Below, piece by piece: positions 1-38,016 of a stretch of 46,817 nucleotides of DNA. A program made the position numbers and the translations under genes. The notes beneath the pieces were generated by a model, which did no database searches, had not been told where the DNA came from, and was given only the letters and a program-made list of their open reading frames with translations. The stretch comes from Vicinamibacteria bacterium (GTDB lineage: Bacteria > Acidobacteriota > Vicinamibacteria > Vicinamibacterales > UBA8438). The stretch spans positions 1 to 46,817 of the forward strand of contig JAJEEA010000516.1 in the NCBI GenBank assembly GCA_022821235.1. The letters are read 5' to 3'. How positions within the stretch are numbered: position 1 is the first letter of the stretch; every line of letters starts with the position of its first letter.

Positions 1-913
1 GATCCGCGCCCGCGGCGATGAGCAGGGCCACCGGGGCGGTGCCGTTCCGCCCGGCCACGTCGGCGAGCAGGCGGTCCTCCTCCGGATTGCCGGTGCGCGC
101 GCAACCGGGGTGCGCTTCCAGCAGGCGCCGCGCCTCGTCGAGCCTCCCGCCGACGACGGCCACGGCCAGCCGGTCGGCGGGGGCGAGGGTGGTGTCGCCT
201 CCGCGCTCGGTCAGCAGGCTCGCCAGCTCGGAGAACCCGCGGCGCTCGGCGTGGGCGTAGGCGGTCTTCCCGCCCGCGGTGCGCGCATCGATGTCGGCGC
301 CGTGGTCCAGCAGACGACGCACCGCCTCGGGACGCCGGCGCCGCGTCGCCACGTGGAGCGGCGTCTCGGCCGTAGCGCCGGCGGTCGCCGCGAGGTCCGC
401 CCCCGCCTCCAGTCGGCGCGCGAGCTCGGCGTCGCCGTCTGGACCGTAGGCGTCGTCGAGTAACTCATGCAGGCTCGGCTCTGCCCGAGACCCGCCGGGG
501 GCGAGGCCCATCTGCGCGAACGCCGCGAGGTTGTCCCACTCGGCCCACGCCTCGATGAGACGTCCCGCCTCGAGGCGGTAGACGGCGAGATAGCGGACCC
601 GCACCGGTCGGCCGGTCGGGGCATGGTCGCCGAACGGGCCGGTCTGGGTGCCCGCGAGCAGATGGCGCGCGGCGACGCGGTCTCCCTCGGCGACGAGGTC
701 CTCGACCGTCTCCCGCGCGTCTGGGAACGTCAGGTACTCGTTGCGGAGAAACCACTTGAGATCGTCCCGGCTGCGCACCCCCGGCTCGCCGGCCGCGTCG
801 CTGTGCCGGACGAACTCCGGAGCCACCAGACGGTCCAGCGCGCCCCAGTCCTGTGCGTTGACGGCGTCGACGAACGCCAGGACGACCCGCTTGTTGCGCT
901 CGACGTCGCTCAT
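1..913 (-). CDS. SnoaL-like (ester/polyketide cyclase-type) domain fused to ankyrin repeats; C-terminus runs off the window
   Basis: Manual reverse-strand translation from ATG at 913-911: MSDVERNKRVVLAFVDAVNAQDWGALDRLVAPEFVRHSD...AVYRLEAGRLIEAWAEWDNLAAFAQMG, then ...ETPLHVATRRRRPEAVRRLLDHGADIDARTAGGKTAYAHAERRGFSELASLLTERGGD. Open to the window edge, so absent from the ORF track. Confidence 0.85.
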   Translation of the reverse strand, partial: MSDVERNKRVVLAFVDAVNAQDWGALDRLVAPEFVRHSDAAGEPGVRSRDDLKWFLRNEYLTFPDARETVEDLVAEGDRVAARHLLAGTQTGPFGDHAPTGRPVRVRYLAVYRLEAGRLIEAWAEWDNLAAFAQMGLAPGGSRAEPSLHELLDDAYGPDGDAELARRLEAGADLAATAGATAETPLHVATRRRRPEAVRRLLDHGADIDARTAGGKTAYAHAERRGFSELASLLTERGGDTTLAPADRLAVAVVGGRLDEARRLLEAHPGCARTGNPEEDRLLADVAGRNGTAPVALLIAAGAD

Positions 914-1150
914 CTCAACACCCGGCGGACATTGAAGACACCGGCGCCGGATCCCGGAACGCGCGGGTACGAGCCCCTGGACTGTGAGGGAAACGGCTGC
1001 GTTCGACCCGCGATGCATCCCGCGTGGCTGTGTTTGCGCCTCGGTGGCACATGCCCGACATGCGCCCTCGTCGCGCCTCGCCACGCGGGCGCGTGGGCGC
1101 CTCGCCAGCGCCCTCCGGGCACGGTGCGACGCGGGGTGTAGCCACGGGCC

Positions 1151-2233
1151 CTATACCAGATAACGGGCCACCGCCGCCTCGTCCCAGTCCATGCCGAGGC
1201 CGGGCCCGCGCGCGGTGACCGCGCCGTCCACCACCCGCGGCGGGTCGGCGAGGACGGCGCCGGCGAGGTCCAGGTACTCCAGGTAGTGCGCCAGCGGCGT
1301 CACCGGCAGCACGTGGGCGCTGGCCTCGATGAAGAGGTGGCTCGACACGGGCACGGCGGCCGCCTCGGCCTGCCCCATGGCGCGCAGCCAGCCCGTCACG
1401 CCGCCCATCTTCATCAGGTCCGGCATGCAGAGGTCGCAGGCCCCGGCCGCGAGGGCGTGGGCCATGTCGTGTCCGAACCACCAGTTCTCGCCGGTCTGGA
1501 TGGGGACCGGAGACGCCTCACGGATGCGCGCGTGGCCGGCGAGGTCCTCGGCCGGCACCGGCTCCTCGACCCATTCCAGGTCGAACCGGGCCAGCGCGCG
1601 GATGCGACGCAGGGCCTCGGGCGCGGTCAGCGACTGGTTGTAGTCGACCATCAGCCGCACGTCCGGCCCGATGATGTCTCGCACCCCCGCGGCCCGCGCG
1701 ACGTCCCATGCCAGATCGCCGGCCCCGATCTTGATCTTGATGGCCCGGAAGCCCTGCTCGACGCTGCGCTCCAGCGCGGCCCGGTCCGCCGCCGGGTCGA
1801 CGATGCCGAAGCTGTCGTAGGCCGGCACCGGCTTCGCCCGCCCGCCGAGCAGCTCGACCACCGACCGCCGCTGCGCGCGCCCCTGCAGGTCCCACAGGGC
1901 CATGTCCAGGCCGGAGAGGGCCATGCCCACGAGCCCTTGGCGCCCCATCAGGCGGAAGCGCGCGGCCAGGTCGTCGTACACCGCGGCCGGAGAAGCCGCG
2001 CGTCCCCGCACGACCTCCTCCACGTCTTCCAGAAACGCCTTCAGCGCCCGCAGCGTGAGGGTGGTGTACCCGAAGACGTAGGCCCGGCCGACCGGCCCTT
2101 CCTCGGTGGCGACGTCCACCAGCAGGAGCGGCGAGACCGGGATGTCGCCCGAGGCAGTGCGCAGCGGCCGCGCCAGCGGCGCGGCGACGGCGCGCGCCGT
2201 CAGCGCGCGGATGGTGAGAGCGGGCTCGAGCAT
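1151..2233 (-). CDS. Mandelate racemase/muconate lactonizing enzyme-type enolase superfamily protein
   Basis: C-terminal third of ORF 1151..4792; start at MLEPALTIRALTARAVAAPL. Motifs AIKIKIG, LMVDYNQSLT, WVEEPVPAEDLAGH, QTGENWW typical of the superfamily. Confidence 0.85.
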   Translation of the reverse strand: MLEPALTIRALTARAVAAPLARPLRTASGDIPVSPLLLVDVATEEGPVGRAYVFGYTTLTLRALKAFLEDVEEVVRGRAASPAAVYDDLAARFRLMGRQGLVGMALSGLDMALWDLQGRAQRRSVVELLGGRAKPVPAYDSFGIVDPAADRAALERSVEQGFRAIKIKIGAGDLAWDVARAAGVRDIIGPDVRLMVDYNQSLTAPEALRRIRALARFDLEWVEEPVPAEDLAGHARIREASPVPIQTGENWWFGHDMAHALAAGACDLCMPDLMKMGGVTGWLRAMGQAEAAAVPVSSHLFIEASAHVLPVTPLAHYLEYLDLAGAVLADPPRVVDGAVTARGPGLGMDWDEAAVARYLV

Positions 2234-2384
2234 GACAGGCTCCGTAACGGTCGTCCCTCCTTCCACGCCAGCGTAAGGCACGGACCGCCCGCGCAGACGA
2301 TACGCCGGGGGACGAACGGAGGTCAACGCAGGTCCGGGGGCGGCCCTGCGGCCTGCGGCGGCACTCGCTGCCATCCTGCCGCAG

Positions 2385-2625
2385 CCGCGTTGCTCCGCAG
2401 ATCCGCGTTGCTCGGCAGTCGCCTGCGCCCCGTCTGCTGCCCTGCCCGGCCAGCGCCCCCGGCGCTCTCCTTGGCGCGGGGGTCTGGCCAAGGGCCGCAG
2501 GCCTGAAGCCGGTCTGCTCGACGGTCGCCTGCGCCCAGTCTGCTGCCCTGCCCGGCCAGCGCCCCCGGCGCTCTCGTGGGCGCGGGGTTCCGGCCAAGGG
2601 CCGCGGGCCCGAAGCCGCAGCCAGC
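2385..2625. repeat. Two direct tandem copies of a ~106-bp GC-rich repeat, preceded by an 18-bp direct repeat
   Basis: gtcgcctgcgccc(c/a)gtctgctgccctgcccggccagcgcccccggcgctct... starts at 2418 and 2524. ccgcgttgctc(c/g)gcag occurs at 2385 and 2403. Confidence 0.85.
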
Positions 2626-2713
2626 CCCCCCGAGGGACCGATTCCGCCCGGTTGGCGGTAGACTCGCATCGAGCGGCGCCACGACAATCCCGGGCGCCGC
2701 GGGAGGCAAGGTG

Positions 2714-4783
2714 ATGACGATTCCCGCTTCGATCCACGGAGGACCCCATCGGCGGCTCGGCGTCTGCATGCTGCTCGCGCTCTTCCTCGCAGCCGCAAGC
2801 GCGTCCGGCCAGGACGACGGCCGGCGCCACCTGGCCCTCGACGACTACCTCTCGTGGGAGACGGTCGCCAATCCCCGCATCTCGCCCGACGGCGAGACCG
2901 TCGTCTACGAGCGGCGCTTCGTCGACCCGGTGGCCGACGGCGTCCGCGGCGAGCTGTGGGTCATCGGCACCGACGGCTCGCGGAACCGGTTCCTCACCGA
3001 AGGCGCCGGCCCGCGCTGGTCGCCGGATGGTACCCGCATCGCCTTCACGCGGTCCGGCGAGCCGCGGGGGTCGCAGATCTTCGTGCGCTGGATGGACGCC
3101 GAGGGCGCCGAGAGCCAGATCACGCGGCTCGAGAACCCGCCGTCGCAGATCCGGTGGGCCCCCGACAGCGGCTCGCTCGCGTTCCGGGCGGTCGTCTCCC
3201 CCCCGCCCGACCCGGCCTGGGACATCGACATGCCGACGGCGCCGGAGGGGGCCGACTGGACCGCCCCGCCCCGCATCGTGACCCGGCTCAGCTATCGCCG
3301 CGACGGGTCCGGTTACACCCCGGCGGGCTACCGCCACATCTTCGTGGTCGACGCCGCCGGGGGCACGCCGCGGAAGCTGACGAGCGGCGACTTCCACCAC
3401 GACGACCCGCGGTTCACCCCGGACGGCGGCGCCATCGTCTTCTCCGGCCTCCGCGAGCCGGATGCCGAGTACGCCTGGCGGCAGTCCGAGGTGTACCGGG
3501 TCGACCTGGCGACGCGCGAGGTCACGGCCCTGACCAGCCGCGACGGCCCCGACGCCGGCGCCGTCCCCTCCCCGGACGGCCGCGCCATCGCCTACACCGG
3601 CATGGACCACACGACCGACACCTACCGCGAGGAGGGCCTCTACGTGATGGCCGCCGACGGCTCGGGCCCCCGGGTCGTCGCCACCGAGATGGGGCGGCGC
3701 CCGGGCATCGTGGGCTGGGCCGCCGACGGCAGCGGCGTCTACCTGAACGCGCAGCTCCGGGGAACGAGCAATCTCCACTTCGCGTCGGTCGACGGCGAGG
3801 TCCGGCAGGTGACGAGCGGCAACCACATGCTCTCGGTGTCGTCGGTCAGCGAGAACGGCGTCGCGGTCGGCGTCGTGTCCAGCTACTACGTGCCCGGCGA
3901 CCTCGTGGCCTTCGACGTGGACGATCCGGCGTCGATGCGCACCCTGCACCGCACCAACGCCGGGCTCCTCGCCGACGTGCGCCTGGGCGAGGTCGAGGAG
4001 ATCTGGTACGAGTCGCCCGACGGGCTCGACATCCAGGGCTGGATCGTCAAGCCGCCCGACTTCGACCCGGCGAGAGAGTACCCGCTCATCCTCCGCATCC
4101 ACGGCGGCCCCCACGCGATGTACAACGCGGGGTTCGACTTCAAGAACCAGGACCACGCGGCGAACGGCTACGTCGTCCTGTACACGAACCCGCGCGGCAG
4201 CAGCGGCTACGGGAGCGCGTTCGGCAACGCCATCAAGAACGCCTACCCGGGAGAGGACTACGACGACCTGATGGCCGGGGTGGACGAGGTCATCTCCCGC
4301 GGCTACGTCGACGAGCGGAACCTGTTCGTGTACGGCGGCAGCGGCGGGGGCGTCCTGACGTCGTGGATCGTCGGCCGCACCGGGCGCTTCACCGCCGCGG
4401 TGGTCAAGGCCCCGGTCACCAACTGGCTGAGCTTCGTCGGCACCACCGACGGGTCGGGCTGGTACCGCAACTTCGAGAAGCTGCCCTGGGAGGACCCCGA
4501 GGAGCACCTGCGGCGGTCGACCCTGATGTACGTCGGCAACGTCACCACCCCGACCCTGCTGATGACCGGCGAGCGCGACCTGCGGACGCCGATGGAGCAG
4601 ACCGAGCAGTACTACCGGGCCCTGAAGCTGCGCAAGGTGCCCACGGCGATGATCCGCCTGACCGACAGTTGGCACAGCCGCAGCTCGCCCCCGACCAACT
4701 TCCTGCGGGTGCAGCTCTACCTGCGGCTGTGGTTCGAGCGGTTCATGGTGGGCGGCGCGGTGGCCACCGACCAGGAGGGGTAG
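2714..4783 (+). CDS. S9 family (prolyl oligopeptidase/dipeptidyl aminopeptidase-like) secreted peptidase with WD40-like/TolB-type propeller
   Basis: Start at MTIPASIHGGPHRRLGVCMLLALFLAAASASGQ (signal peptide). SPDGE/SPDGT propeller motifs; HGGPHAMYNAGFDF, NPRGSSGYG, YGGSGGGVLTSWIVGRT nucleophile region; terminal DSWHSR. Confidence 0.9.
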   Translation: MTIPASIHGGPHRRLGVCMLLALFLAAASASGQDDGRRHLALDDYLSWETVANPRISPDGETVVYERRFVDPVADGVRGELWVIGTDGSRNRFLTEGAGPRWSPDGTRIAFTRSGEPRGSQIFVRWMDAEGAESQITRLENPPSQIRWAPDSGSLAFRAVVSPPPDPAWDIDMPTAPEGADWTAPPRIVTRLSYRRDGSGYTPAGYRHIFVVDAAGGTPRKLTSGDFHHDDPRFTPDGGAIVFSGLREPDAEYAWRQSEVYRVDLATREVTALTSRDGPDAGAVPSPDGRAIAYTGMDHTTDTYREEGLYVMAADGSGPRVVATEMGRRPGIVGWAADGSGVYLNAQLRGTSNLHFASVDGEVRQVTSGNHMLSVSSVSENGVAVGVVSSYYVPGDLVAFDVDDPASMRTLHRTNAGLLADVRLGEVEEIWYESPDGLDIQGWIVKPPDFDPAREYPLILRIHGGPHAMYNAGFDFKNQDHAANGYVVLYTNPRGSSGYGSAFGNAIKNAYPGEDYDDLMAGVDEVISRGYVDERNLFVYGGSGGGVLTSWIVGRTGRFTAAVVKAPVTNWLSFVGTTDGSGWYRNFEKLPWEDPEEHLRRSTLMYVGNVTTPTLLMTGERDLRTPMEQTEQYYRALKLRKVPTAMIRLTDSWHSRSSPPTNFLRVQLYLRLWFERFMVGGAVATDQEG

Positions 4784-4946
4784 GGACGACAACCCGGCGG
4801 GCGACGCCCAGAGAGGACCGGAGCCGAGACTGCCGTCGATGCGTGAGGCATCATGCGGTCGCTCGTGTGTACCGACCTGCGGCGCGCTGCCGCCTCCGAT
4901 GGGCGGGCAGCCTCCGTAGATACGCCACCGAAAGGTAGTTCAGAGA

Positions 4947-6452
4947 GTGCTCACACGCCTCCAGGTAGACGGCTTCAAGAATCTCGATCGGATAGACGTA
5001 CGACTGGGTCCCTTCACGTGCGTCGCCGGCCCCAACGGAGTCGGAAAGTCGAATCTGTTCGACGCCATCTCGTTCCTCGCCACACTCGCAGACAAGCCTC
5101 TGGTCGAAGCCGCCTCGACGGTGCGCGGAGGGGACTCCCGACGAGGCGACGTCTGGAGCCTCTTCCGCCGTGCCGGCGACCGCGTGGCCGAAACGATGAA
5201 GTTCGCCGCCGAGTTCCTGATTTCCGGCGAGGGCGAGGACGAGCTCGGCCAGGCAGCCAAGGCTTCGATGACGTTCCTCCGGTACGAGTTGGAACTGCGC
5301 CATCGACAGGACTCCACCATTCGGACGATGGGCGCGCTGGAGATCGCCCGAGAGCGCATGGTGCACATAAACAAGTCCGAAGCGAAGAGCCGGCTCGGCT
5401 TTCCCCACAAGGAGCCCTGGCGAGACTCCGTCGTCACCGGTCGCCGTACGAGCGCCTATATCTCGACGGAAACCGAACGAGGCGACGCAGTCGTCTCGCT
5501 GCACGCGGACAGCAAGGCCGGCCTGGGCGGCGGACGTCCACGCCGCGTGCCTGCCGCCAGCCTGCCGCGCACGATGTTGTCGTCAGTCAACAACGCGGCA
5601 GAGCATCGAACATTGGTGCTCGCCCGTCAGGAGATGGTGGCGTGGACCCAGCTCCAACTGGAGCCCTCGGCTCTCCGGGCGCCCGACGAGTTCACGGCGC
5701 CACGCAGCATGGGGCCGAACGGAGCCCATCTGCCGGCGACGCTGTACGACCTTGCCCAGGCCGCGCAACGAAGTCAGCCCGGCGGAGAACGAGACATCTA
5801 TGCGCGAGTCGCCAACAGGCTCTCGGAGCTCGTCGAGAACGTCCGGAGCATCGGCGTCGACGTTGACGACAAGCGACAGCTGCTGAGTATCGTGATGACG
5901 GATCTCCAGGACACGGAGCACGTCGCCAGCGCCCTTTCCGATGGCACGCTGCGATTCCTGGCCCTGACCGTCATGGAATCCGATCCCAGGAGCAGGCGGC
6001 TGCTCTGCCTGGAGGAACCCGAGAACGGGATGCACCCGCTTCGGATCTCGGCCGTCATCGAGTTGCTGCGCGAGCTCGCGGTCGACGTCGACGAGCCGGT
6101 CGACGCGGACAACCCGCTTCGACAGGTCATCATCAACACGCACTCGCCGTCGGTGGTGGCGTGCGTTCCCGACGACGCACTGCTCATGGCTCACATCGCG
6201 CGCAGCGGCGAGGCGGAGGCATCGCGACTGACCATACGTCATTTGCCCGATACGTGGCGCGTCCATGACGGCTCCGACGAGTCGACGGTGACGCGCGGTG
6301 ATCTGTTGGCCTACTTGAGTCCCCTGGAGGTCCTCGATGAGGAAGACGACACTCCACAGCCCGCGCGCACCGCAACCAAGGTCATGCACAGAAGCGACCT
6401 CCGGCAGGTCGAACTCCCGCTTGCGCCTGCCGGGAACGGGTCTGAACCATGA
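4947..6452 (+). CDS. OLD-like AAA ATPase (AAA_21/RecF-type P-loop)
   Basis: LQVDGFKNLDRIDVRLGPFTCVAGPNGVGKSNLFDAISFLATL (Walker A); ALSDGTLRFLALTVME (signature); RRLLCLEEPENGMHPLRI (Walker B); IINTHSPSVVACVPDD. Confidence 0.88.
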   Translation: MLTRLQVDGFKNLDRIDVRLGPFTCVAGPNGVGKSNLFDAISFLATLADKPLVEAASTVRGGDSRRGDVWSLFRRAGDRVAETMKFAAEFLISGEGEDELGQAAKASMTFLRYELELRHRQDSTIRTMGALEIARERMVHINKSEAKSRLGFPHKEPWRDSVVTGRRTSAYISTETERGDAVVSLHADSKAGLGGGRPRRVPAASLPRTMLSSVNNAAEHRTLVLARQEMVAWTQLQLEPSALRAPDEFTAPRSMGPNGAHLPATLYDLAQAAQRSQPGGERDIYARVANRLSELVENVRSIGVDVDDKRQLLSIVMTDLQDTEHVASALSDGTLRFLALTVMESDPRSRRLLCLEEPENGMHPLRISAVIELLRELAVDVDEPVDADNPLRQVIINTHSPSVVACVPDDALLMAHIARSGEAEASRLTIRHLPDTWRVHDGSDESTVTRGDLLAYLSPLEVLDEEDDTPQPARTATKVMHRSDLRQVELPLAPAGNGSEP

Positions 6453-7085
6453 TGCCGCGGGCGACCCTGGTTACGGATGGGGCCTCTGACGTGGTACTCG
6501 TGCCGATCCTGCGGTGGCTGATGAGGCAGTTGACTGCCGAGCCGGTCGAGATCCGGTGGGCCGATCTGAGGGGATTCCGCGTGAAGCCCCGAAGCCTGGC
6601 CCAGAAGCTCGCCGTCGCCGTCCGGGAGTACCCCTGTCAGCTTCTCTTCGTGCACCGAGATGCGGAGGGACAGGATCCGCAGCGCCGTTACGAGGAGATA
6701 CGCGGAGCCGTCACCGGCACGGCCTGCCGTCACGTCTGCGTCGTGCCGGTGAGAATGCAGGAAGCTTGGCTCCTGCACGATGAGACCGCGCTTCGCGAGG
6801 CGGCGGATCGCCCGTCCGGCACCCATGACCTCGGCCTGCCGCCGCCGCATCGCTGGGAACACCTGCCGGACCCGAAGAGGGTCCTTCATGACGCGCTGCG
6901 CGCCGCCAACGGGGCGACGGGCAGGCGTGCGAAGAACTTCAGGCCGAAACGCGGCGGCGCACCGCCTGGCCGACCTGATCACGGACTGGAGGCCACTGCG
7001 GAACCTGGGGGCATTCAACCAACTGGAAGCGGACACCAGGAGCGCTGTCGAGCTTCTCGGCCTGCAGACGGTCGAAGCCGACTGA
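6449..7085 (+). CDS. DUF4276/TOPRIM-like partner protein; reading frame apparently shifts +1 near 6945-6962
   Basis: ATGA overlap with the ATPase stop. MMPRATLVTDGASDVVLVPILRWLM...LLFVHRDAEGQDPQRRYEEI...VPVRMQEAWLLHDETALREAA in one frame. The plausible C-terminus AAHRLADLITDWRPLRNLGAFNQLEADTRSAVELLGLQTVEAD* lies in the next frame (ORF 6780..7085). Confidence 0.7.
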
Positions 7086-7229
7086 GGACCGGAGCGCTTC
7101 GCCCCGCGGCGAGCATTCGATGCAGCCGACGCCCATCCGGGCCACGAATCGGCGGCGTCTCGCGGTCGAGGACGGCCGCCGTTGAGTAGCAGGTCGGTGC
7201 GCCCGGGGTTGTCGAGAGGAGATTCAGTG

Positions 7230-9593
7230 ATGTTGTCGACGAGGATACGCGTGGGGGCGGGCGCCGTAGCGGTCGCGGCGATGGCCGCCGGCGCCGCGTG
7301 GGCGCAGTCGGCGGCCGAGATCGGCCCGCAGGCGGCGCTGAACGCGATGGGCATCGTCGGCTACGCCGACCGGATGAGCGTGGCGCCGGGCGAGACCATC
7401 CGGTTCATGGTGAGCAGCGGGCTGCCCACCTACCGGACCGAGATCGTCCGGCTGATCCACGGCGACGCGAACCCGAACGGGCCGGGCATCAAGGAGGAGC
7501 TGGTCGAGACGCCGGCCAACGGCGACTACCCCGGCCGGCGCCAGGAGCTGCCGCTCGGCTCCTACGTGACGGTGCCGGACGCGGCGCCGCTGCGGCTCGG
7601 CGGGAGCTTCACGATCACGGCCTGGATCGCGCCGACGCGCCCCGGGGTCGTCGGCTGGGTCGCCGAGCCGGGCGCGCAGGGCGTGGTGACGAAGTGGTCA
7701 GCGGACCGCGGCTACGGCCTGATGATCGACGAGCAGGGGCGGCTGGCCCTGTGGCTCGGCGGGGCCGATGGCGAGGTGGCGCGGGTGGCGGCGGAGCCGG
7801 CGCTCCGGCGCTGGGCGCCGGCGATTCCGGGGGCGGGCCGGCCGCGGCCCCACGGCGTGCCGACGCAGTGGACCTTCGTGGCGGCGACGTTCAACGCCGA
7901 CACCGGCCGGGTGGCACTGTACCAGGAGCCGCTGGACCTCTACGCGAACGACCCGACGCGGGTCGTGGTGGAGGAGACGACGCCGGTGCGGGCGCTGGCC
8001 ACGCCCGAGGTACCTCTGCACATGGCGGCCTACGCGACCGCCGACGGGGGCGTGGCGGGGCACTACAACGGGAAGATCGACAACCCGCGCATCTACGCGC
8101 GCGCGCTCGGCCGAGCCGAGGTCGAGGCGATCGCGGACGGCGCGGGGCCGGACGACGCCGCGGCGGCGTGGGATTTCGCGGCAGACATCGAGACCGACCG
8201 GGTGCGCGACACCGCGGGGAACGGGCTCGACGGCCGCACCGTGAACCTGCCGACGCGCGCGGTGACCGGGCACCTGTGGGACGCGACCGAGATGGACTTC
8301 CGGCGCGCGCCCGAGCAGTACGGGGCCATCCACTTCCACGACGACGACCTCCTGGACGCGGGCTGGGAGGTCGGCTTCGCCTTCGAGGCGCCGGCCGACC
8401 TGCCGAGCGGCGTGTACGCGGCGCGGCTGCGGACCATAACGAGCGAGGACTACGTGCCGTTCTTCGTCCGGCCGCCGCGCGGCACCTCCACCGCGAACAT
8501 CGCGTTCCTGGCCCCGACCGTCAGCTATCTCGCCTACGCGGGGACCGGCGGCACCGGCTTCCAGCCGATGAGCCTCTACTCCACGCACACCGACGGGAGC
8601 GGCGTGACCTACTCGTCGCGGCTCCGCCCCATCACCAACATGCGCCCGAAGATCGACACCCGCAACCCGTGGCAGTTCATGGCCGACACCCACCTCGTCG
8701 ACTGGCTCGAGGTGAAGGGTTTCACCGTCGACGTCGTCACCGACCACGACCTCCACGCCGAGGGGGCGGCGCTGCTCGAGCCCTACAACGTTGTGCTGAC
8801 CGGCACTCACCCCGAGTACTACTCGTGGGAGATGCTGCAGGGCATGCGGTCGTACCTCGAGCAGGGCGGCCGCCTGATGTACATGGGCGGCAACGGCTTC
8901 TACTGGGTGACGCCCGTCGACCCCACCGGGACCTTCATCGAGGTGCGGCGGCGCGACGGCACCGAGCACTGGCAGGGGGCGCCGGGCGAGAGCCACCACA
9001 GCCTGACCGGCGAGCCGGGCGGGCTGTGGCGCTTCCGCGGCCGCGCCCCGCAGTGGCTGGTGGGGGTGGGGTTCACCGCGCAGGGGTTCGACCGGAACTC
9101 CCCGTACCAGCGGATGCCGGACAGCTTCGACCCGCGCGTCGCCTTCGTCTTCGAGGGCATCGGCGACAACGAGCTCATCGGCAACCACCCGTCGCTGGTG
9201 CTCGACTTCGGGGCGGCGGGGTCCGAGCTCGACCGCGTGGACCTCGCCCAGGGCTCGCCGCCCCACACGCTGGTGCTGGCGCGGTCGTTCGGCCACTCCG
9301 ACGCCTACCAGCACGTGATCGAGGAGGTGAACACCAGCAACTCCGAGCAGGGGGGCACGGTCAACCCGCTCGTCTATGCCGACATGGCCTACGTGGAGTA
9401 CCCCAACGGGGGCGCGGTGTTCTCGACGAGCTCCATCGCGTGGAGCGGCAGCCTGTCGTTCAACGCCTACGACAACAACGTCTCGCGGCTGACCGAGAAC
9501 GTGCTGCGGCGGTTCGCCTCGGACGAGCCGCTGCCGGGACCGACGGCGGCGTCCGCGGGGGGGGAAACCGGCGCCGCCGGCGGCGGGCGATGA
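7230..9593 (+). CDS. Secreted N,N-dimethylformamidase large-subunit-like protein with LamG/concanavalin-like domain
   Basis: Signal peptide MLSTRIRVGAGAVAVAAMAAGAAWAQ. LGGSFTITAWIAPT (LamG-like); GAIHFHDDDLLDAGWEVGFAFEAPADLPSGVYAARLRT..DYVPFFVRPPRG; LTGTHPEYYSWEMLQGMRSYLEQGGRLMYMGGNGFYW. Confidence 0.82.
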   Translation: MLSTRIRVGAGAVAVAAMAAGAAWAQSAAEIGPQAALNAMGIVGYADRMSVAPGETIRFMVSSGLPTYRTEIVRLIHGDANPNGPGIKEELVETPANGDYPGRRQELPLGSYVTVPDAAPLRLGGSFTITAWIAPTRPGVVGWVAEPGAQGVVTKWSADRGYGLMIDEQGRLALWLGGADGEVARVAAEPALRRWAPAIPGAGRPRPHGVPTQWTFVAATFNADTGRVALYQEPLDLYANDPTRVVVEETTPVRALATPEVPLHMAAYATADGGVAGHYNGKIDNPRIYARALGRAEVEAIADGAGPDDAAAAWDFAADIETDRVRDTAGNGLDGRTVNLPTRAVTGHLWDATEMDFRRAPEQYGAIHFHDDDLLDAGWEVGFAFEAPADLPSGVYAARLRTITSEDYVPFFVRPPRGTSTANIAFLAPTVSYLAYAGTGGTGFQPMSLYSTHTDGSGVTYSSRLRPITNMRPKIDTRNPWQFMADTHLVDWLEVKGFTVDVVTDHDLHAEGAALLEPYNVVLTGTHPEYYSWEMLQGMRSYLEQGGRLMYMGGNGFYWVTPVDPTGTFIEVRRRDGTEHWQGAPGESHHSLTGEPGGLWRFRGRAPQWLVGVGFTAQGFDRNSPYQRMPDSFDPRVAFVFEGIGDNELIGNHPSLVLDFGAAGSELDRVDLAQGSPPHTLVLARSFGHSDAYQHVIEEVNTSNSEQGGTVNPLVYADMAYVEYPNGGAVFSTSSIAWSGSLSFNAYDNNVSRLTENVLRRFASDEPLPGPTAASAGGETGAAGGGR

Positions 9594-9759
9594 CGCCCCG
9601 CGCGCACCAGGAGCCTGCACCGTAGGAACGGAGCCGATTCGGGAAGGGTTGGCAGGGCGCCCATCCCTGCGGCCGGAGTTTCGCTCCGCCGAACCCCGAC
9701 GCGCCGCGGGGTCGCGCGGCGACGACTCGCGGGGCAGGGCTGAACGGGCGCGAGCGAGC

Positions 9760-9905
9760 CGATGTACCCGGCCGAGGCGCGGTCGGCGCTGCGACCTCCT
9801 CGCCGCGCGGGTGCGCCCGGAGGGCGGAGGCGCGATGTACCAGGTCGAGGCGTGGTCGGCGCTGCGCAGGGCCCGGCGCGGCGCGGGCGGGGGCCTGGGC
9901 TGGCG
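9760..9905 (+). repeat. Imperfect 73-bp tandem duplication of the MFS gene start region
   Basis: cgatgtaccCGGcCgaggcgCggtcggcgctgcg (start 9762) versus cgatgtaccAGGtCgaggcgTggtcggcgctgcg (start 9835). Confidence 0.8.
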
Positions 9906-11250
9906 GCACGTCAGCGGCACTGTCTGGGCCCTGGGCTTCACGAGCCTCTTCACGGACGTCTCGTCCGAGATGGTGGCGACGGTGCTGCCCGTCTACCTGG
10001 TGCTCTACCTCGGGCTGACGCCCCTCCAGTTCGGCATCGTCGACGGGCTCTACCACGGGGTGACGGCGCTGCTGCGGCTGGCCAGCGGCGTCGCCGTCGA
10101 CCGGACCGGCCGCTCGAAGGAGATCGCCCTCGCGGGCTACGGCGCCTCGGCGGCGTCCCGGCTCGCCATGCTGGCGGCCGGCGCCTCGTGGCCGCTCATC
10201 GCCGGCGTCGTGGCGTTCGACCGGGCCGCCAAGGGCGCCCGCGCCGTGCCGCGCGACGTGCTGATCTCGCTGAGCAGCCGTCGCGACGGCCTCGCCACCG
10301 CCTTCGGCGTGCACCGGGCCCTCGACAGCGCCGGCGCCATGCTGGGGCCGCTGGTCGCCCTCGCCATACTCGGCGCCCTCCCGAACGCCTTCGACGTCGT
10401 CTTCGTGGCCAGCTTCAGCGTGGCCGTCGTCGGGCTCGGCGTGCTGGTCCTCTTCGTCAACAACGCCGAACGGCCCGCCGCCCCGGCGCCGACCGGCAAC
10501 GGCAGCGCACCGCCCACCACCCCCGCACACGCGGCGTCGGCGGGGGGGTCCGAGGCGCCTGGAGCCGCCGCCGTCGAACCGACCGCCACGGAGCCCCGGC
10601 TCGCGTTGTCAGGCGGGCTCCCCACCGGTCCGCCGCCGCCCTCGGGTCACGGCGCAACGCGGAGTCTCATCGCGGGCATCCTGCGCACCCCCGGCCTGCT
10701 GCGCCTCACCGTCGCCGCGACGATGCTCGCCGCCGCCACGGTGAGCGACGGCTTCCTCTACCTGTTGTTGCAGCGTGAGGCCGGCTTCAGCCCCGGCCTG
10801 TTCCCGCTGCTCTACGTCGGCACGTCGGGCTGCTACCTGGCGCTCGCGGTGCCGGCCGGGGGGCTGGCGGATCGCATCGGCCGGCAGCGCGCGTTCCTCG
10901 CGGGCTACGGGTTGCTCGCCGCCGCCTACCTGACTACGATGCAGTCGGGGATCGGCTTCCCCGGAATTGCGGGCTGCCTCATCCTGTTGGGCGCCCACTA
11001 TGCGCTGACCGACGGCGTGCTGATGGCGTTCGCCAGCGGCCGGCTGGCCCGGGAGCGGCGGGGCAGCGGACTGGCGCTCCTCACGACCGCGGCCGGCCTC
11101 GCCCGGCTGTCGGGCTCGGTCGTGTTCGGCGCGCTCTGGACGCGGTACGGCGCCGGGACGGCGGTGCCGGTGTTCCTGATCGCGCTCGTAGCGGCCATCG
11201 CGGGGGCTGCGGTTCTCCTGCGGGACACGGGTGGCAAGAGCGAGCGTTGA
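9835..11250 (+). CDS. MFS transporter
   Basis: GTVWALGFTSLFTDVSSEMVATVLPVYLVLYLGLTPLQFGIVDGLYHGVTALLRLASGVAVDRTGRSKEIALAGY; multiple hydrophobic helices with a central Pro/Ala-rich linker. Confidence 0.88.
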   Translation: MYQVEAWSALRRARRGAGGGLGWRHVSGTVWALGFTSLFTDVSSEMVATVLPVYLVLYLGLTPLQFGIVDGLYHGVTALLRLASGVAVDRTGRSKEIALAGYGASAASRLAMLAAGASWPLIAGVVAFDRAAKGARAVPRDVLISLSSRRDGLATAFGVHRALDSAGAMLGPLVALAILGALPNAFDVVFVASFSVAVVGLGVLVLFVNNAERPAAPAPTGNGSAPPTTPAHAASAGGSEAPGAAAVEPTATEPRLALSGGLPTGPPPPSGHGATRSLIAGILRTPGLLRLTVAATMLAAATVSDGFLYLLLQREAGFSPGLFPLLYVGTSGCYLALAVPAGGLADRIGRQRAFLAGYGLLAAAYLTTMQSGIGFPGIAGCLILLGAHYALTDGVLMAFASGRLARERRGSGLALLTTAAGLARLSGSVVFGALWTRYGAGTAVPVFLIALVAAIAGAAVLLRDTGGKSER

Positions 11251-11400
11251 TGACTCCGGCCGGGCATGGGCGGAACCGGCACGCCCCGACGGCCGGGAGG
11301 CGGTCGCGACGGTCCTTCTGAGAGACACGGGCGATAGAGGCGGAACATGGCGGCTCCGGCCGGGGATCGGCGGAACGGGCACGCGGCCCGCAGGGCGCGC
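11211..11400 (+). repeat. Imperfect 100-bp tandem duplication spanning MFS gene 3' end / next gene 5' end
   Basis: ggttctcctgcgggacacgg...gactccggccgggcatgggcggaaccggcacg (11211) versus ggtccttctgagagacacgg...gcggctccggccggggatcggcggaacgggcacg (11311). Confidence 0.7.
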
Positions 11401-12777
11401 GATGCCCCGTCAAACCGGCGCACGCCGACCCGCGTCGCCGCGTTCGCGCTCCTGTGCGCGGCCTCCCTCGGGCTGGCCGCCGGCTACGCCTGGTGGTCGG
11501 CGGCGCGCCGGGCGAGCTTTGTCCAGGACGTCTCCCTACCGCCGATCGGCAGTCTGGCCGAGATCGATCCGCCAACCGCGACGGCGCCATCGGACTCCGA
11601 AGGCGCGCGGACTGCGGACACCACGCAGCCACCGGCGACTCCCGAGGGCGGGGCGGCGTCTCCTCCCCGCGACGCGCGGTTGCCGGAAGATCGGTCGGGA
11701 GGCGCCGTGAGCTCCTCGCGGGAGTCGGATCCCGATCCCGGGACGGAGGTGGCGGCCGCTCGGCGGGGAAGGGGCAGCCCGGCCCCCGCAGCGGCGAACC
11801 CGGCAGCCGAGGCGGACGCCGATGACGCCCAGCCGAAGCCGGCAGCCACCGAGAACACGACCGGAGCGGCCGGCTCGACGGCGGGAGTGGACAGCGACGA
11901 TCCGCACGCGGAGCGCGTCCTGCTCCTTCGCCACACGGCGCTCGACGAGAGCTTCGGCGTGGCCAGCGTCGAGCGGCTGGACGAGGCAAGCGGCGGGCGC
12001 CGCGCGACGCCGTTGCGCTGCGACCGGGTCGACTTCGCGGGCGAGCGGGGCGTCTGCCTGACCACCGACCGCTTCTACACGACGCACGCGATCATGGTGT
12101 TCGACCGTGGGTTCGAGCCGCTGCACCGGCTGCCGCTGCACGGCGTCCCCAGCCGCGTGCGCCTCTCGCCCGACGGCCGGCTGGCCGCGGTGACGGTGTT
12201 CGTGTCGGGCCACTCGTATCTCGACGAGGGCTTCTCGACCGAGACGAGCATCGTCGACACCTACTCCGGCGAGCGGCGGGTCGCGAACCTCGAGGAGCTC
12301 CAGGTGTACCGGGACGGCGCGCCGTTCCGCGCGATCGACTTCAACTTCTGGGGCGTCACCTTCGCGGCCGACGGCGACCGGTTCTACGCGACCCTGGGCA
12401 CCGGGGGGACCACTTACCTCGTCGAGGGACGCGTCTCGACGCGCCGGGCCGATGTCGTGGCCGAAGGCGTCGAGTGCCCGTCGCTGTCGCCTGACCAGAG
12501 CCGCCTCGTCTTCAAGAAGCGCCTGCCCCTCGCGGCCGGGCTCGGGTGGCGGCTCCACGTCATGGACCTGCGGTCGCGCGCGGTCACACCGCTCGCCGAG
12601 CTCCGGTCCGTGGACGATCAGGCCGAGTGGCTGGACGACTCGACGGTCCTGTACGCCATCCCCGACACCTCCGCACCCACCCCGATGGTGACCGACGTCT
12701 GGCAGGTCCCGGCCGACGGCGGCGGCGCGCCGGAGCTGCTCCTCGAGGGCGCTTCGTCGCCGGCCGTGCTCCGCTAG
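11347..12777 (+). CDS. Membrane-anchored TolB/PD40-type beta-propeller protein
   Basis: Single N-terminal TM segment (VAAFALLCAASLGLAAGYAWW), low-complexity linker, then LSPDGRLAAVTVF, FAADGDRFYATLG, LSPDQSRLVFKKR, LDDSTVLYAIPD repeats. Confidence 0.75.
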   Translation: MAAPAGDRRNGHAARRARDAPSNRRTPTRVAAFALLCAASLGLAAGYAWWSAARRASFVQDVSLPPIGSLAEIDPPTATAPSDSEGARTADTTQPPATPEGGAASPPRDARLPEDRSGGAVSSSRESDPDPGTEVAAARRGRGSPAPAAANPAAEADADDAQPKPAATENTTGAAGSTAGVDSDDPHAERVLLLRHTALDESFGVASVERLDEASGGRRATPLRCDRVDFAGERGVCLTTDRFYTTHAIMVFDRGFEPLHRLPLHGVPSRVRLSPDGRLAAVTVFVSGHSYLDEGFSTETSIVDTYSGERRVANLEELQVYRDGAPFRAIDFNFWGVTFAADGDRFYATLGTGGTTYLVEGRVSTRRADVVAEGVECPSLSPDQSRLVFKKRLPLAAGLGWRLHVMDLRSRAVTPLAELRSVDDQAEWLDDSTVLYAIPDTSAPTPMVTDVWQVPADGGGAPELLLEGASSPAVLR

Positions 12778-13048
12778 CGGTGTGTCTGCGGAGGGGGGTC
12801 GGCACGATCGCCCGTAGCTGACGCGACCACCCACGCCCGCGGTCTCGAGCACCGATTGAGATCCGCCGTGTCGAACTCGCGGAAGTTGAACCGCAAGTCC
12901 ATTCCGGTGACGCACCACCTGGAGTCGGCGCCGTAGAACGGCGCGGACTTCCCGGTGAGGTGGTTGGGGCGCCAGCGGAGCCGCAGGCGACGATTGGCGG
13001 GCGAGGTCCCGCCGACAGGGCCGCGCGGAGGTCAGGCCATAATGACCC

Positions 13049-13459
13049 ATGGCTGAGAGACCGACCGACATCCCGCGCGGCACGCGCGCCCCGGGCTATC
13101 CCCGCGCCCCCGGACATCGCGTCGCGTTCGTGCCCCGCCACCTCCGCGTGCGCGTGGCCGCGGGCGGGACCGAGATTGCCGCGACCACCGACGTCGTGGC
13201 GCTCGAGGAGAAGGGATACCCGACGCGCCACTACCTGGCCCGTGACGGCGTCGACATGTCCCGCCTGGAGAAGACGGGCAAGACGACATTCTGCCCCTTC
13301 AAGGGGCTGGCCACCTACTACGTGATTCACGGCCCCGACGGCGAGATCCGAGACGCGGCGTGGAGCTACGAGCGGCCCTATCGCGAGGCCGAGCTCGTGC
13401 GCGACCGCCTCGCGTTCGATGCGGACGCGGTGGAGGAGACGGTCGGCTCGACGCCGTGA
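13049..13459 (+). CDS. DUF427 domain-containing protein
   Basis: VRVAAGGTEIAATTDVVALEEKGYPTRHYLARDGVDMSRLEKTGKTTFCPFKGLATYYVI...AAWSYERPYREAELVRDRLAFD. Confidence 0.85.
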   Translation: MAERPTDIPRGTRAPGYPRAPGHRVAFVPRHLRVRVAAGGTEIAATTDVVALEEKGYPTRHYLARDGVDMSRLEKTGKTTFCPFKGLATYYVIHGPDGEIRDAAWSYERPYREAELVRDRLAFDADAVEETVGSTP

Positions 13460-16808: not shown

Positions 16809-17055
16809 ATGCCGCCGCCGCGCATCCTGCTGATCTTCGCCCATCCGGACGACGAGAGCTTCATCGCCGCCGGCTTGGTGCGCAGCCACGCCGACCACGG
16901 CGCTCGAACGGCGCTCGTCACCGCGACCCGCGGCGACGCCGGACGCGTGGGCGATCCTCCTTTGTGCGACCGGGCAGAGCTGCCGGCCGTCCGTGAGTCG
17001 GAGCTCCGCCGGGCGGCCGCGGTCCTCGGCATCTCCGACGTGCAATTGCAGCGCG
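16809..17055 (+). pseudogene. Truncated PIG-L/LmbE-type deacetylase N-terminal fragment
   Basis: MPPPRILLIFAHPDDESFIAAGLVRSHADHGARTALVTATRGDAGRVGDPPLCDRAELPAVRESELRRAAAVLGISDVQLQ, then loss of family resemblance (GGCSRRRTTPAPPDRR). Confidence 0.75.
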
Positions 17056-17215: not shown

Positions 17216-17869
17216 TCAATCGTCGGGCTCTATGGCCTCGAGGAGTAGGTACATGCCCGACGATGGGTTGTCTTTCGGGAATTCCCTTCCGTCACCTGCG
17301 TGCTTGGCAGTCAAGGCACGCGCACGTCGAGCCGCATCGGCTCGCCGCGGCATGTACTGCGAGCCGTCCAGTCCCTTGCCCGAGCTCTTGTCATGCTTGC
17401 GGCGCAGCTTCCCGGCGGCGTCGTTGTCGAGCCAGGCCGTGTGGTCCTCGAAATGGAGCGCCAGCCACAGCTCGAAGCACGGATTCGAAATGGCAAGACG
17501 GACGTCGCTCGCTTCGGCCCTGGCTCTGGCCTCGGAAAGCCCAGGATGATTCCGAGGCCATTCGACGTCGAAAAGACACCACACCTCGTCAATCTCGCCT
17601 TGCTCCTGAGAGCTGCGCGCTCGGGCTTCGGCCGCCGCGTTCACCAGGGTCAACGGCACCGCGCCGCTCGCTTCGAGGTCTATGCGGATGTCGACCGACG
17701 CCGACTCGCGGACGGCCGGCTCCAGTTTCAGGGCCTCGATGTAGTCGGGCTCGGTCCTCGCGCCTTCACAGAACACCAGGAAAGTCCGCCTGGGAGTGCG
17801 AAACGCGACCCGGCGACGGAGCGATGGGTCCCTGCCCCGCCTGTGCCCCGTCCGCCTAGCCCTGGCCAT
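17216..17869 (-). CDS. rloB: RloB-like protein
   Basis: RTFLVFCEGARTEPDYIEALKLE, EVWCLFDVEWPRNHPGLSEA, LAISNPCFELWLALHFEDH. Start ATG at 17869 overlaps the ATPase 3' end by 14 nt; an alternative start at 17920 exists. Confidence 0.8.
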   Translation of the reverse strand: MARARRTGHRRGRDPSLRRRVAFRTPRRTFLVFCEGARTEPDYIEALKLEPAVRESASVDIRIDLEASGAVPLTLVNAAAEARARSSQEQGEIDEVWCLFDVEWPRNHPGLSEARARAEASDVRLAISNPCFELWLALHFEDHTAWLDNDAAGKLRRKHDKSSGKGLDGSQYMPRRADAARRARALTAKHAGDGREFPKDNPSSGMYLLLEAIEPDD

Positions 17870-19145
17870 CGCGAGGCTGAGGAACGAGCCCGAGGGCTCT
17901 GCGCACGGCGACCTGGTCAACCTCGGGAACGGCCCCGAAGCGGCCTTGCAGGTAGGCTCTCTCGAGGTTCTGGGACTTCCTCACCCGTTCACCCCCGAAC
18001 TCGGCCAGACCCACGAGGTGCGTGGTAGCGTCAGGCGCTTTCTCGGTGAGCCAGACCTCGTCGCGGTTCAAGCTGTTCAGCAGGGACGTGTCGTGGGAAG
18101 TAAAGACCAGTTGAGCCCCGCGGGTATTGGTCAGGGGATCCTGGAAGATCTCGATCAGACGCGCCGAGAGCCGGGGATGGAGACTCGCGTCGATCTCGTC
18201 GAGCAGGAGGACCCGGCCGAATCTGAGCGCCGCGAACGCAGGACCGATCAGACGGAACCAGGTCCGGGTTCCGGCGGATTCTTCTTCCAGATCGAAAGTG
18301 ACCGGTTCACCTTCTCCGCGATGCACGAGACCAAGGCGACGACGAGGTCCACCGGGGCGCCCGGAGTCCTCTTCGCTGATCATCAAATCGTCGATTCCTG
18401 GATCCGCAAAGCGAAGCAGGTCCAGGACACGCCTTGGATCCTTGACGGCTGGTCGCTCCTCCGGAGTACCAAAGAGACCCAGCGCATCGGCCTCATCTGT
18501 CTCGACGAGCAAGCGTAGCGTGGGGTCGGAAGGATGCACGCCACCGGCCCCGGAAAACCGTCTCCTTCGGAGCCCCAGAACACGCGTTCTGGCCAGCGAT
18601 TTCCCGACGCGTGCGAAGTCGGTACCACGTACTCGCCGGCCAGCGGAGAGCACCAGCGTCGTTGGCGTCAGCAGGTCCCGTATTCCCCGGGTGCCGTCGA
18701 GGCCCCGGCGAAAGTCGATTTCACTCCTGCGTCGCGTGAAGAGGTTTCGACGTCGTCCTTCCGGATAGCTGTCCAAGCTCTCGAAAAGGACGGCCGAATC
18801 GTCCACTTCGAGCCGGTACCCGTATCGGACGCCCTTGGCGACCAGATCCAGATCGAACTCCGATGGAGAGACCGGCCCGTTGCCGAGCCGGTGAGCATCG
18901 CGCGGAACGTAGTCCTCCCAGCTTCGAAGCGACGTGGCGACGGCCATCGAGAGCCACGCCAAGGCGTCCAGCACGTTGGACTTGCCCGACGCGTTGGGCC
19001 CGTAGATTCCGGCGACGGTCAGGACGCGCTCCGAGAGGCCGTCGAACCCGCGCGTCGCCGCGCGATCCTCGTCGACGGCGATCATCGACAGCTCCACCGG
19101 CTCGAGAATCGAGCGGTGGTTGGCGACCCGGAATCGCAGCAACAC
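17856..19145 (-). CDS. AAA_15/AAA_21-type ATPase (RloA-like)
   Basis: MLLRFRVANHRSILEPVELSMIA...VAGIYGPNASGKSNVLDALAWLSMAV (Walker A); FGRVLLLDEIDASLHPRLSARLIEIFQDP (Walker B); QLVFTSHDTSLLNSLNRDEVWLTEK. Confidence 0.88.
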   Translation of the reverse strand: MLLRFRVANHRSILEPVELSMIAVDEDRAATRGFDGLSERVLTVAGIYGPNASGKSNVLDALAWLSMAVATSLRSWEDYVPRDAHRLGNGPVSPSEFDLDLVAKGVRYGYRLEVDDSAVLFESLDSYPEGRRRNLFTRRRSEIDFRRGLDGTRGIRDLLTPTTLVLSAGRRVRGTDFARVGKSLARTRVLGLRRRRFSGAGGVHPSDPTLRLLVETDEADALGLFGTPEERPAVKDPRRVLDLLRFADPGIDDLMISEEDSGRPGGPRRRLGLVHRGEGEPVTFDLEEESAGTRTWFRLIGPAFAALRFGRVLLLDEIDASLHPRLSARLIEIFQDPLTNTRGAQLVFTSHDTSLLNSLNRDEVWLTEKAPDATTHLVGLAEFGGERVRKSQNLERAYLQGRFGAVPEVDQVAVRRALGLVPQPRDGQG

Positions 19146-27483: not shown

Positions 27484-27658
27484 TCCAGCCGAATAACTCG
27501 CTGGCACGCTTCAGGAGCGCCTGCAGATTCCAGTCAGCACCCTCCTCTCGCCAGATGCGGCGACTCCGTAGATCCGCCACATGGACGGATCGCTTCCGCC
27601 CGTCCTTGCTCCAATCGGCGGAGATGAAGAAGACCGGTGTAGTCACGACGTGAGTCAC
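27401..27658 (-). pseudogene. Possible truncated third gene of the VapBC operon, overlapping the TonB receptor 3' end
   Basis: GTG start overlaps the VapC stop (GTGA): VTHVVTTPVFFISADWSKDGRKRSVHVADLRSRRIWREEGADWNLQALLKRASELFGW, then reads antisense of the TonB gene. Confidence 0.4.
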
Positions 27659-28056
27659 CCCATGCGAACGTGCTGCACGACGACACCCAGCCCCGGTGCC
27701 CTGGAGAGCCTGCCGTCGGCCGTCAGCAGGATGGCGTCGTTGGCGCGCGCGGCGGCTACGTAGAGGGCATCGTACGCACTGACGTTGTGGAGATGCCGCC
27801 AAGCCAAGCGGGCCAGCGTTCGATTGGGAAGACGGTCCACTGGCCAGGCAGCCAGGTCGTTCAGAGCGGTGAGCGCAAGCCCCTCATCGAGGCGACCGCC
27901 CAGCACCGCCTCGCGTAGCGCCGACAGCACTTCCGCGTCCAGCAGCTCCGGTGCCATCAGGGCCGCGCGCTCGACGAGATCGGCCAACGCCAGCCCGATC
28001 GGCGTCTTCAGGAGGTACTCGACCGCCACCGACGCGTCGATGACGTATCGGGTCAC
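27655..28056 (-). CDS. PIN-domain toxin (VapC family)
   Basis: MTRYVIDASVAVEYLLKTPIG...MAPELLDAEVLSALREAV...HNVSAYDALYVAAARANDAILLTADGRLSRA. Confidence 0.9.
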   Translation of the reverse strand: MTRYVIDASVAVEYLLKTPIGLALADLVERAALMAPELLDAEVLSALREAVLGGRLDEGLALTALNDLAAWPVDRLPNRTLARLAWRHLHNVSAYDALYVAAARANDAILLTADGRLSRAPGLGVVVQHVRMG

Positions 28057-37075: not shown

Positions 37076-37339
37076 GGGCTCTTCCTCCCGGCCATCCTCG
37101 GTTTCCCTGTTCCCGGTGCGCTCCCGCCCGGCTCGCCGCGCCGGCCGGGGTACGCCGTTCGCAGAATAGCACGCATGACGGCAGGCATCACCCGCACCCG
37201 CACGACCCGATGCGCATCATCATGATCCGATGGCGCGAACCCGCGAGCCGTTCGAAGCGGCCGGCTGACGACGGTGGCGACGGGGACACGGAGACCGCGG
37301 CGACGACGACGCAGATCCTGGCGCAAGGGTCGAGGCTGG

Positions 37340-37367
37340 GGTAGAATAGCCCCCGCCATTTTCTACC
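37340..37367. promoter_or_regulatory. Inverted repeat upstream of VapB-like gene, overlapping a possible -10 (TAGAAT)
   Basis: GGTAGAA-N14-TTCTACC, ending 9 bp before the ATG at 37376. Confidence 0.45.
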
Positions 37368-37375
37368 AGGAACGC

Positions 37376-37633
37376 ATGAGCCTGAACATCAAGAACGCGG
37401 AGACGTGCCGGCTGGCCGCGGAGCTGGCCGGCTTGACCGGCGAGACGATGACCGGCGCGATAACCGTGGCGTTGCGCGACCGGCTGGAGCGGGAAAAGCG
37501 GGTGCGCAACGCGGACGCGCTGGCGGCGAAGCTTCACGAAATCGGCCAGCGTTGCGCCGCGCGCATGGGGCCGGGACCCTCGGCGGTCGAGCATGGCGAC
37601 TACCTCTATGACGAGCGAGGGCTGCCGAAGTGA
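37376..37633 (+). CDS. VapB-like antitoxin (Rv0623/PSK-type transcription factor)
   Basis: MSLNIKNAETCRLAAELAGLTGETMTGAITVALRDRLEREKRVRNADALAAKLHEIGQRCAARMGPGPSAVEHGDYLYDERGLPK. Confidence 0.9.
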   Translation: MSLNIKNAETCRLAAELAGLTGETMTGAITVALRDRLEREKRVRNADALAAKLHEIGQRCAARMGPGPSAVEHGDYLYDERGLPK

Positions 37634-38016
37634 TCATCGACACGTCGGCGGTCGTGGCCATCCTGCTCGCCGAACCGGATGCGCCGCGTTACGAACGGGC
37701 AATCTCGACCGCCTGGCCCCGGCGAATGTCGATGATCGCGCTGCTCGAGACGACGATGGTCATCGAGGGCAGAAGCGGACCGGAGGCAGGAAACGACCTC
37801 GACCAGTTTCTGCAGGAGGCCGACATCGAGCTGACGCCGGTCACGCCGGAACAGGTCGAGGCCGCGCGCCTCGCCTGGCGGCGGTTCGGCAAGGGCCATC
37901 ACCCGGCCGCGTTGAACTTCGGCGACTGCTTCGCCTACGCACTCGCGAGCACGACCCGAGAGCCGTTGCTGTTCAAAGGCGAGGATTTCGCCCGCACCGA
38001 CGTCGAGGCGGCGTGA
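37630..38016 (+). CDS. PIN-domain toxin VapC
   Basis: GTG start with GTGA overlap: (V)IIDTSAVVAILLAEPDAPRYERAIS...SMIALLETTMVIEGRSG...LNFGDCFAYALASTTREPLLFKGEDFARTDV. Confidence 0.92.
   Translation: MIIDTSAVVAILLAEPDAPRYERAISTAWPRRMSMIALLETTMVIEGRSGPEAGNDLDQFLQEADIELTPVTPEQVEAARLAWRRFGKGHHPAALNFGDCFAYALASTTREPLLFKGEDFARTDVEAA

Follow-up and report, generated by a model that had tools for sequence, protein, structure and literature searches.

The window analysed here is the whole stretch of 46,817 nucleotides of contig JAJEEA010000516.1 from a Vicinamibacteria bacterium, whose genome is available as a draft assembly of 552 contigs. It contains a two-gene module on the forward strand, in which an ATPase ORF (4947-6452) is followed by a smaller partner gene starting at 6449. 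The features of this module, together with a second pair further downstream, are as follows.

4775-7216, strand not applicable: module stretch of 2442 bp, missing in a genome of the same genus (G001), with colinear flanks on its contig C154
4947-6452, forward: HEC-01A-type ABC ATPase, 501 aa, GTG start (PDLC04184, E=3.1e-103; PF13304, E=2.3e-26)
6449-6452, forward: ATGA overlap of the ATPase stop and the partner start; the 4-base overlap recurs in many relatives
6449-7189, forward: partner ORF as read, 246 aa; codons 1 to ~168 HEC-01B/DUF4276-like, the remainder out of frame
6476-6490, forward: partner motif I, D-G-A-S-D (family [DE]-G-x-x-D), at the position of TOPRIM motif I
6653-6667, forward: partner motif II, H-R-D-A-E (family H-R-D-x-[ED]), at the position of the TOPRIM DxD
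6755-6772, forward: partner motif III, M-Q-E-A-W-L (E-A-W common to DUF4276)
6940-6960, forward: approximate frameshift site relative to intact relatives, from comparison with relatives and profile matches
6953-7085, forward: family C-terminus (AAHRLADLITDW...VEAD), in a frame different from that of the ORF start; profile positions 159-207 at 6909-7064
17216-19145, reverse: second pair, PADLOC AbiL type, with an RloB-type protein (17216-17920) and an AAA_21 ATPase (17856-19145)

An earlier note had described the module as a pair at 4947-7085 with overlapping genes. The overlap is exact, as the ATPase ends at 6452 and the partner begins at 6449, and the split into an ATPase and a small partner is real, but no single frame of the partner spans 6449-7085. 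A scan for promoters and terminators revealed nothing beyond chance.

Presence and absence of the module at a fixed site

In the window the pair is neighboured by genes for an S9 peptidase, a DMFA2_C protein and an MFS transporter. Contig C154 of the same-genus genome G001 is colinear with this region, matching it at 95.6% over window positions 1-4774 and at 95.0% over 7217-13068, while exactly the 2442 bp between them (4775-7216) are missing and 7 bp are found there instead. The empty site is flanked on one side by the S9 peptidase gene and on the other by the ribosome-binding site that precedes the following gene. Thus, the pair has been gained or lost as one unit between two ordinary genes. 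The G+C content of the ATPase gene is 65%, compared to 72-73% in the two flanking genes, and its third-position G+C is 0.80, compared to 0.96-0.97. A genome from another genus of the same family (G023) possesses an ATPase that is 84% identical and likewise sits behind the S9 gene, itself about 90% identical; the intergenic stretches there exhibit no similarity to those of the window, and the downstream gene is a different one.

At this locus of G023 (L111, G023:C61, reverse strand, 7186-8031 and 8028-9668), an unrelated protein of 281 aa, with no match in Pfam or NCBIfam, takes the place of HEC-01B behind the 84%-identical ATPase, at the 4-base ATGA overlap. If this were a true replacement, the sensor could be equipped with another effector while keeping its place in the chromosome. 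A true swap is nevertheless doubtful, because the 281-aa family also stands as a separate module: in four or five related genomes its members occur with no HEC-01 ATPase within 1.5 kb, and these genes adjoin the same conserved convergent gene.

The pair at 17216-19145 had been read as RloAB, and rightly so, since the RloB protein matches PF13707 (E=1.5e-34) and the pair matches the PADLOC models AbiLi/AbiLii. Two further statements of the earlier note about this pair could not be upheld. The two pairs are not non-homologous, as both ATPases are members of PF13304 and both partners are probably TOPRIM-like, and their clustering is not conspicuous, as two such ATPases 11 kb apart correspond to about the chance level in this genome. 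With 38 PF13304 matches in 6.6 Mb, of which ~20 were assumed (as an estimate) to be true conflict-type ATPases, random placement would yield ~0.7 pairs at a spacing of up to 12 kb, and presumably nothing special is needed to explain how close the two pairs lie. The colinearity with C154 stops at window position 17049, just before RloAB and close to the end of C154, and the RloAB pair may itself have been inserted as another unit. Elsewhere in the window, a single ORF (42183-43034) combines nucleotidyltransferase and HEPN domains (a fused MNT-HEPN) with weak matches to PADLOC PDC-S09, and small ORFs at 37274-38016 and 27655-28056 resemble, by eye, antitoxins and PIN-type toxins (VapBC-like).

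The ATPase and its putative TOPRIM-type partner

The ATPase starts with MLTRL, identical to the start of its relatives. The HEC-01A model PDLC04184 was identified as its best PADLOC match, with residues 1-410 aligned to positions 1-397 of the 464 in the profile. The HMM search returned the ABC-ATPase profile AAA_21 (the PF13304 match listed above), and the Walker A, signature, Walker B and H-loop motifs are conserved across 24 relatives. Comparison of the sequence profile with PDB chains identified OLD (E=2e-13) and AriA (8ux9/8v45, E=4e-5); among the PADLOC models, the similarity to AriA-type ATPases has E=1e-26. A structure model of one relative (mean pLDDT 85, with a disordered tail from ~residue 461) resembles the heads of SMC/Rad50 proteins, OLD, PtuA and the ATPases of retrons. 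There is no fused TOPRIM domain in the ATPase: the chain stops ~100 residues past the H-loop, its tail being of low confidence.

The best PADLOC match of the partner is the HEC-01B model PDLC04210 (E=1.7e-19, a modest 68 bits), and the HEC-01B models are matched by the partners of all 19 intact relatives. The suggested similarity to DUF4276 falls short of the Pfam threshold, as PF14103 scores 13.3 bits on the partner ORF against a gathering cut-off of 30.2 (14.9 bits on the intact relative L011); it matches 13 of the 19 relatives' partners at E<=1, with a best E of 7e-7. The profile-profile comparison by hhalign, on the other hand, confidently identified the relationship (probability 98.8, E=1.3e-16, 193 columns), with a score of 107.7 versus a maximum of 15.1 for column-shuffled profiles. 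On the basis of these profiles, the partner is assigned as a divergent relative of DUF4276. Neither PF14491 (DUF4435) nor PF13707 (RloB) matches it, in agreement with the earlier view that it belongs to neither family, and the hhalign scores against DUF4435 and RloB are within the range of shuffled profiles or noise.

Positions common to HEC-01B and, largely, to DUF4276 are (L011 numbering) [DE]10-G11-x-x-[DE]14, D70-x-[DE]72, E103-A-W105 and P139-K140. The elements [DE]10-G-x-x-D14 and D70-x-[ED]72 are retained in 19/19 relatives, motif I starting with D instead of E in 17 of them, and H68-R69-D70 is invariant among the HEC-01B proteins of the intact relatives. The model of the L011 partner (pLDDT 94, pTM 0.89) exhibits the order E3-8, H12-28, E32-36, H49-59, E64-68, H76-86, E92-96 (E, strand; H, helix), in which motif I falls at the passage from strand 1 to helix 1, with motif II placed after strand 3. 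This is the arrangement established for TOPRIM domains (Aravind 1998, as cited in PMC12409363). In the model, the positions of the acidic residues, their spacing and the strand order agree with TOPRIM, and the motif alignment places HRDAE, which is present in the window, where the usual DxD is expected, as had been anticipated. The TOPRIM-like character of the partner could thus be substantiated at the level of the acids, but not at that of fold significance: Foldseek searches with the partner model found no TOPRIM match at E<=0.001 in either PDB or BFVD. Below this threshold, a PARIS chain (8ux9_A) appears at rank 49 in PDB, and the matches in the viral library BFVD include several topoisomerases and one RloB-like protein. 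The hhalign comparison with the TOPRIM profiles of OLD gives a weak signal (23.8 versus a shuffled maximum of 15.2), and a PDB sequence search with the partner profile returned nothing relevant. Taken together, the sequence profiles and the model suggest that a TOPRIM fold is probable, though not proven.

Relatives, genomic contexts and known systems

A search with the ATPase in 84,980 species genomes identified 32 loci, of which 25 (L011-L035, sharing 37% identity or more with the first row of the alignment) were sampled as relatives. The partner is found directly downstream of the ATPase in all 25, albeit frame-broken in L021 and L024, so the order of the pair is preserved beyond chance. The distances among ATPases and among partners are strongly correlated (mirror-tree with 18 loci, r=0.91, while 2000 permutations reach at most 0.68); the two genes co-diverge and are inherited together. 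Members of at least eight phyla (Acidobacteriota, Myxococcota, Planctomycetota, Cyanobacteriota, Verrucomicrobiota, Fibrobacterota, Actinomycetota and Pseudomonadota) are mixed in the tree. Among 100 genomes related to the source, 10 contain a match, several of them with 2-3 copies, and collections of plasmids and phages contain almost no close relatives of the pair.

The analysis of 140 ORFs flanking the relatives revealed mostly metabolic genes among those assigned by Pfam, and single cases of PADLOC matches at E<=1e-10. The sole stand-outs are two more distant relatives: L033, a BREX/Pgl-type locus (78-11653) with, in this order, PglW, an ORF, PglX, the HEC-01 pair and BrxC, and L030, in which BrxB and BrxC are followed by the HEC-01 pair. 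Pairs of OLD-ABC and TOPRIM proteins have been described as backup effectors of BREX (PMC12839542). An enrichment of defence genes near the homologs, which the earlier note had proposed as a check, is therefore weak, with mostly housekeeping surroundings and two clear BREX cases, and a defence-island setting was rejected on the same grounds.

Several related arrangements were encountered during this survey. In locus L117 (G012:C11, 7172-9462, reverse strand), the ORF of a related ATPase continues in frame into a nucleotidyltransferase domain, and a HEPN ORF occupies the place expected for HEC-01B (MNT-HEPN type). L123 (G012:C195, 1726-3767, reverse strand) carries a less closely related ATPase, after which come a gene resembling Uma2 endonucleases and another ATPase. 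The source genome itself (G000) contains an ATPase with a DUF4435 protein, i.e. a PARIS-like pair, on contig C411 (L083), ATPases with DUF4276 neighbours on C536 (L093), C56 (L106) and C103 (L108), and a second copy of HEC-01B on C486 (L165), which is also frame-broken.

The notion of an unrecognised architecture did not survive the comparison with known systems. According to the model matches, the pair is a member of a candidate kind already catalogued in PADLOC as HEC-01A/HEC-01B, and MAD3-MAD4 of the methylation-associated defence system (MADS) is a relative. Both genes of the window match the HEC-01 models (PADLOC-DB 2.0), and their order and ATGA overlap are the same in relatives; the window pair differs in the frameshifted partner and in lying outside any Hma or other defence locus, although embedding in a host defence locus is the way in which HEC-01 was found and not a criterion of its models. 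HEC is short for Hma-embedded candidate, and antiviral activity in assays is reported for several HECs (PMC12988326). Literature searches returned neither a functional paper on DUF4276 or HEC-01 in defence nor a phage assay of HEC-01.

The ATPase is related to MAD3 (E=4.2e-40), but membership in MADS was rejected, as its score of 138 bits is far short of the NCBIfam cut-off of 420 bits for MAD3 and a MAD4 partner is missing: the intact partner of L011 has neither a match to NF047734 (MAD4) nor a direct alignment with MAD4. No other MADS genes were seen among the neighbours scanned. The locus L026 contains an ATPase followed by a MAD4 protein (1795-3719; NF047734, E=8e-61, above the cut-off) and, within the same 10 kb, a HEC-01 pair. 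This MAD4 protein matches the DUF4276 profile (E=2.6e-8), which on sequence grounds places MAD4 of MADS with the DUF4276 group.

PARIS, like the window pair, has a separate ABC ATPase, with AriA-type similarity in the window, and an effector of TOPRIM type, which the window partner probably is as well, but AriB is a DUF4435 protein (PF14491) and the window partner is DUF4276-like; an identity with PARIS was rejected given the lack of a PF14491 match and the hhalign result for DUF4435. RloA-RloB/AbiL likewise combines a split ATPase with a small TOPRIM-like partner, and this identity was rejected as 6449-7189 has no PF13707 match. OLD proteins of classes 1-3 (including GajA) are similar in the fold and motifs of the ATPase, but the TOPRIM candidate of the window is not in the ATPase polypeptide. 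The parallel to the two-gene logic of PARIS and OLD drawn in the earlier note thus applies to the split design, while the pair itself is neither PARIS nor a fused OLD.

Possible function of the pair

We consider it probable that the family represents a horizontally mobile two-gene HEC-01 conflict module, in which an ABC ATPase of OLD/AriA type would act as the sensor and a divergent DUF4276 protein as the effector nuclease, gated in a PARIS-like manner. The ATPase would serve as sensor and scaffold, and the separately encoded DUF4276 protein, with its putative TOPRIM-style metal site, as the effector, kept silent by the ATPase until an infection cue by analogy to AriA and AriB. The cue would lead to the ATP-gated release or activation of the effector, which could then cleave tRNA or DNA and halt phage multiplication, probably via growth arrest or death of the cell (abortive infection). 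The release of the effector and the cutting of tRNA are proposed by analogy with PARIS, in which the TOPRIM protein cleaves tRNA once it has been set free (PMC12409363). This proposal starts from the observed pair, its order and co-inheritance, the ATPase motifs, the acids and fold topology of the effector, purifying selection and the gain or loss as a unit. Complex formation, the trigger, nuclease activity, its substrate and defence itself are what we infer from there. The patchy spread, the precise empty site, the broken copies, the BREX-associated relatives and the link between MAD4 and DUF4276 were counted in favor of a mobile defence module, and the metabolic neighbours, the absence of a significant TOPRIM fold match, the nil similarity to DUF4435 and the frameshift in the window were counted against it.

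The confidence placed in the alternatives is not mutually exclusive, as one of them concerns the window copy and the others the family. The pair could form a stable DNA nuclease complex similar to Gabija or OLD, in which the ATPase would serve as a DNA clamp and phage DNA would be nicked by the DUF4276 partner itself, with no release of a toxin. The presence of SMC/Rad50 heads and OLD among the best matches of the ATPase model and the fit of the TOPRIM acids to a two-metal DNA nuclease (OLD review, PMC10568477) speak for such a complex; we nevertheless regard it as unlikely, since the partner is a separate protein of 208 aa, as in PARIS. That the DUF4276 protein is another Rossmann-like enzyme or binding protein rather than a TOPRIM nuclease seems rather unlikely: the lack of a significant TOPRIM match in Foldseek, the D in motif I and the unusual invariant H-R before D point in this direction, but the acid positions, spacing and strand order argue otherwise, as do the sub-threshold matches to topoisomerases and an RloB-like protein in the viral library. 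Very unlikely, in our opinion, is a role outside defence, e.g. as a chromosomal maintenance or regulatory ATPase pair that resembles defence ATPases. The housekeeping neighbours of most relatives would agree with such a role, and Cran1, an OLD-type ATPase of archaea, has a role in the cell cycle (PMC12796447); against it stand the patchy phyletic spread with matches in just 10 of 100 related genomes and several with multiple copies, the precise presence or absence in the sister genome, the broken copies and the BREX-associated members.

As for the window copy, there is a slight preponderance in favor of a decaying pseudogene with no present function, in which the ATPase alone is open; this is compatible with a mobile conflict module as the explanation of the family. 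The family profile matches the window in one frame at 6455-6952 and in another at 6909-7064, and the DNA alignment with two close intact relatives reveals a one-base offset near 6950, i.e. after codon ~168. Read from its start codon, the ORF continues to 7189; the C-terminus typical of the family is encoded in the other frame, up to 7085. A programmed frameshift was rejected, as the partner is a single-frame gene in 19 relatives (about 200-217 aa). The break lies beyond all putative catalytic acids and removes the C-terminal helices alone, which argues against a pseudogene, as does the signature of selection upstream of it: differences per codon position are 0.12/0.10/0.43 for the ATPase (relative to L013) and 0.15/0.15/0.51 for the partner before the break, and their concentration at third positions indicates that both genes were under purifying selection until recently. 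The frameshift may also be a base error of the draft assembly. Two other DUF4276-type partner genes of the same genome (on C486 and C103) are frame-broken as well, which favors either real decay or a general indel problem. If the assembly is right, the window copy is probably inactive, given an effector gene frameshifted past its catalytic motifs.

It is quite unlikely that HEC-01B forms a branch of its own among the TOPRIM-type nucleases, marked by an invariant H-R-D-x-[ED] active site, gated by the ATPase sensor and exchangeable as an effector. DUF4276, or its relatives MAD4 and HEC-01B, recurs next to ABC ATPases, the source genome alone having several of these pairs, and a full-text literature search returned no match for DUF4276. 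If the TOPRIM reading is true, DUF4276 would join AriB, RloB and OLD as a further branch of TOPRIM effectors, and a common candidate defence pair would acquire a testable active site. The clean empty site also shows that such pairs are gained or lost as whole units amid housekeeping genes and away from defence islands, in places where they would escape screens based on co-localisation.
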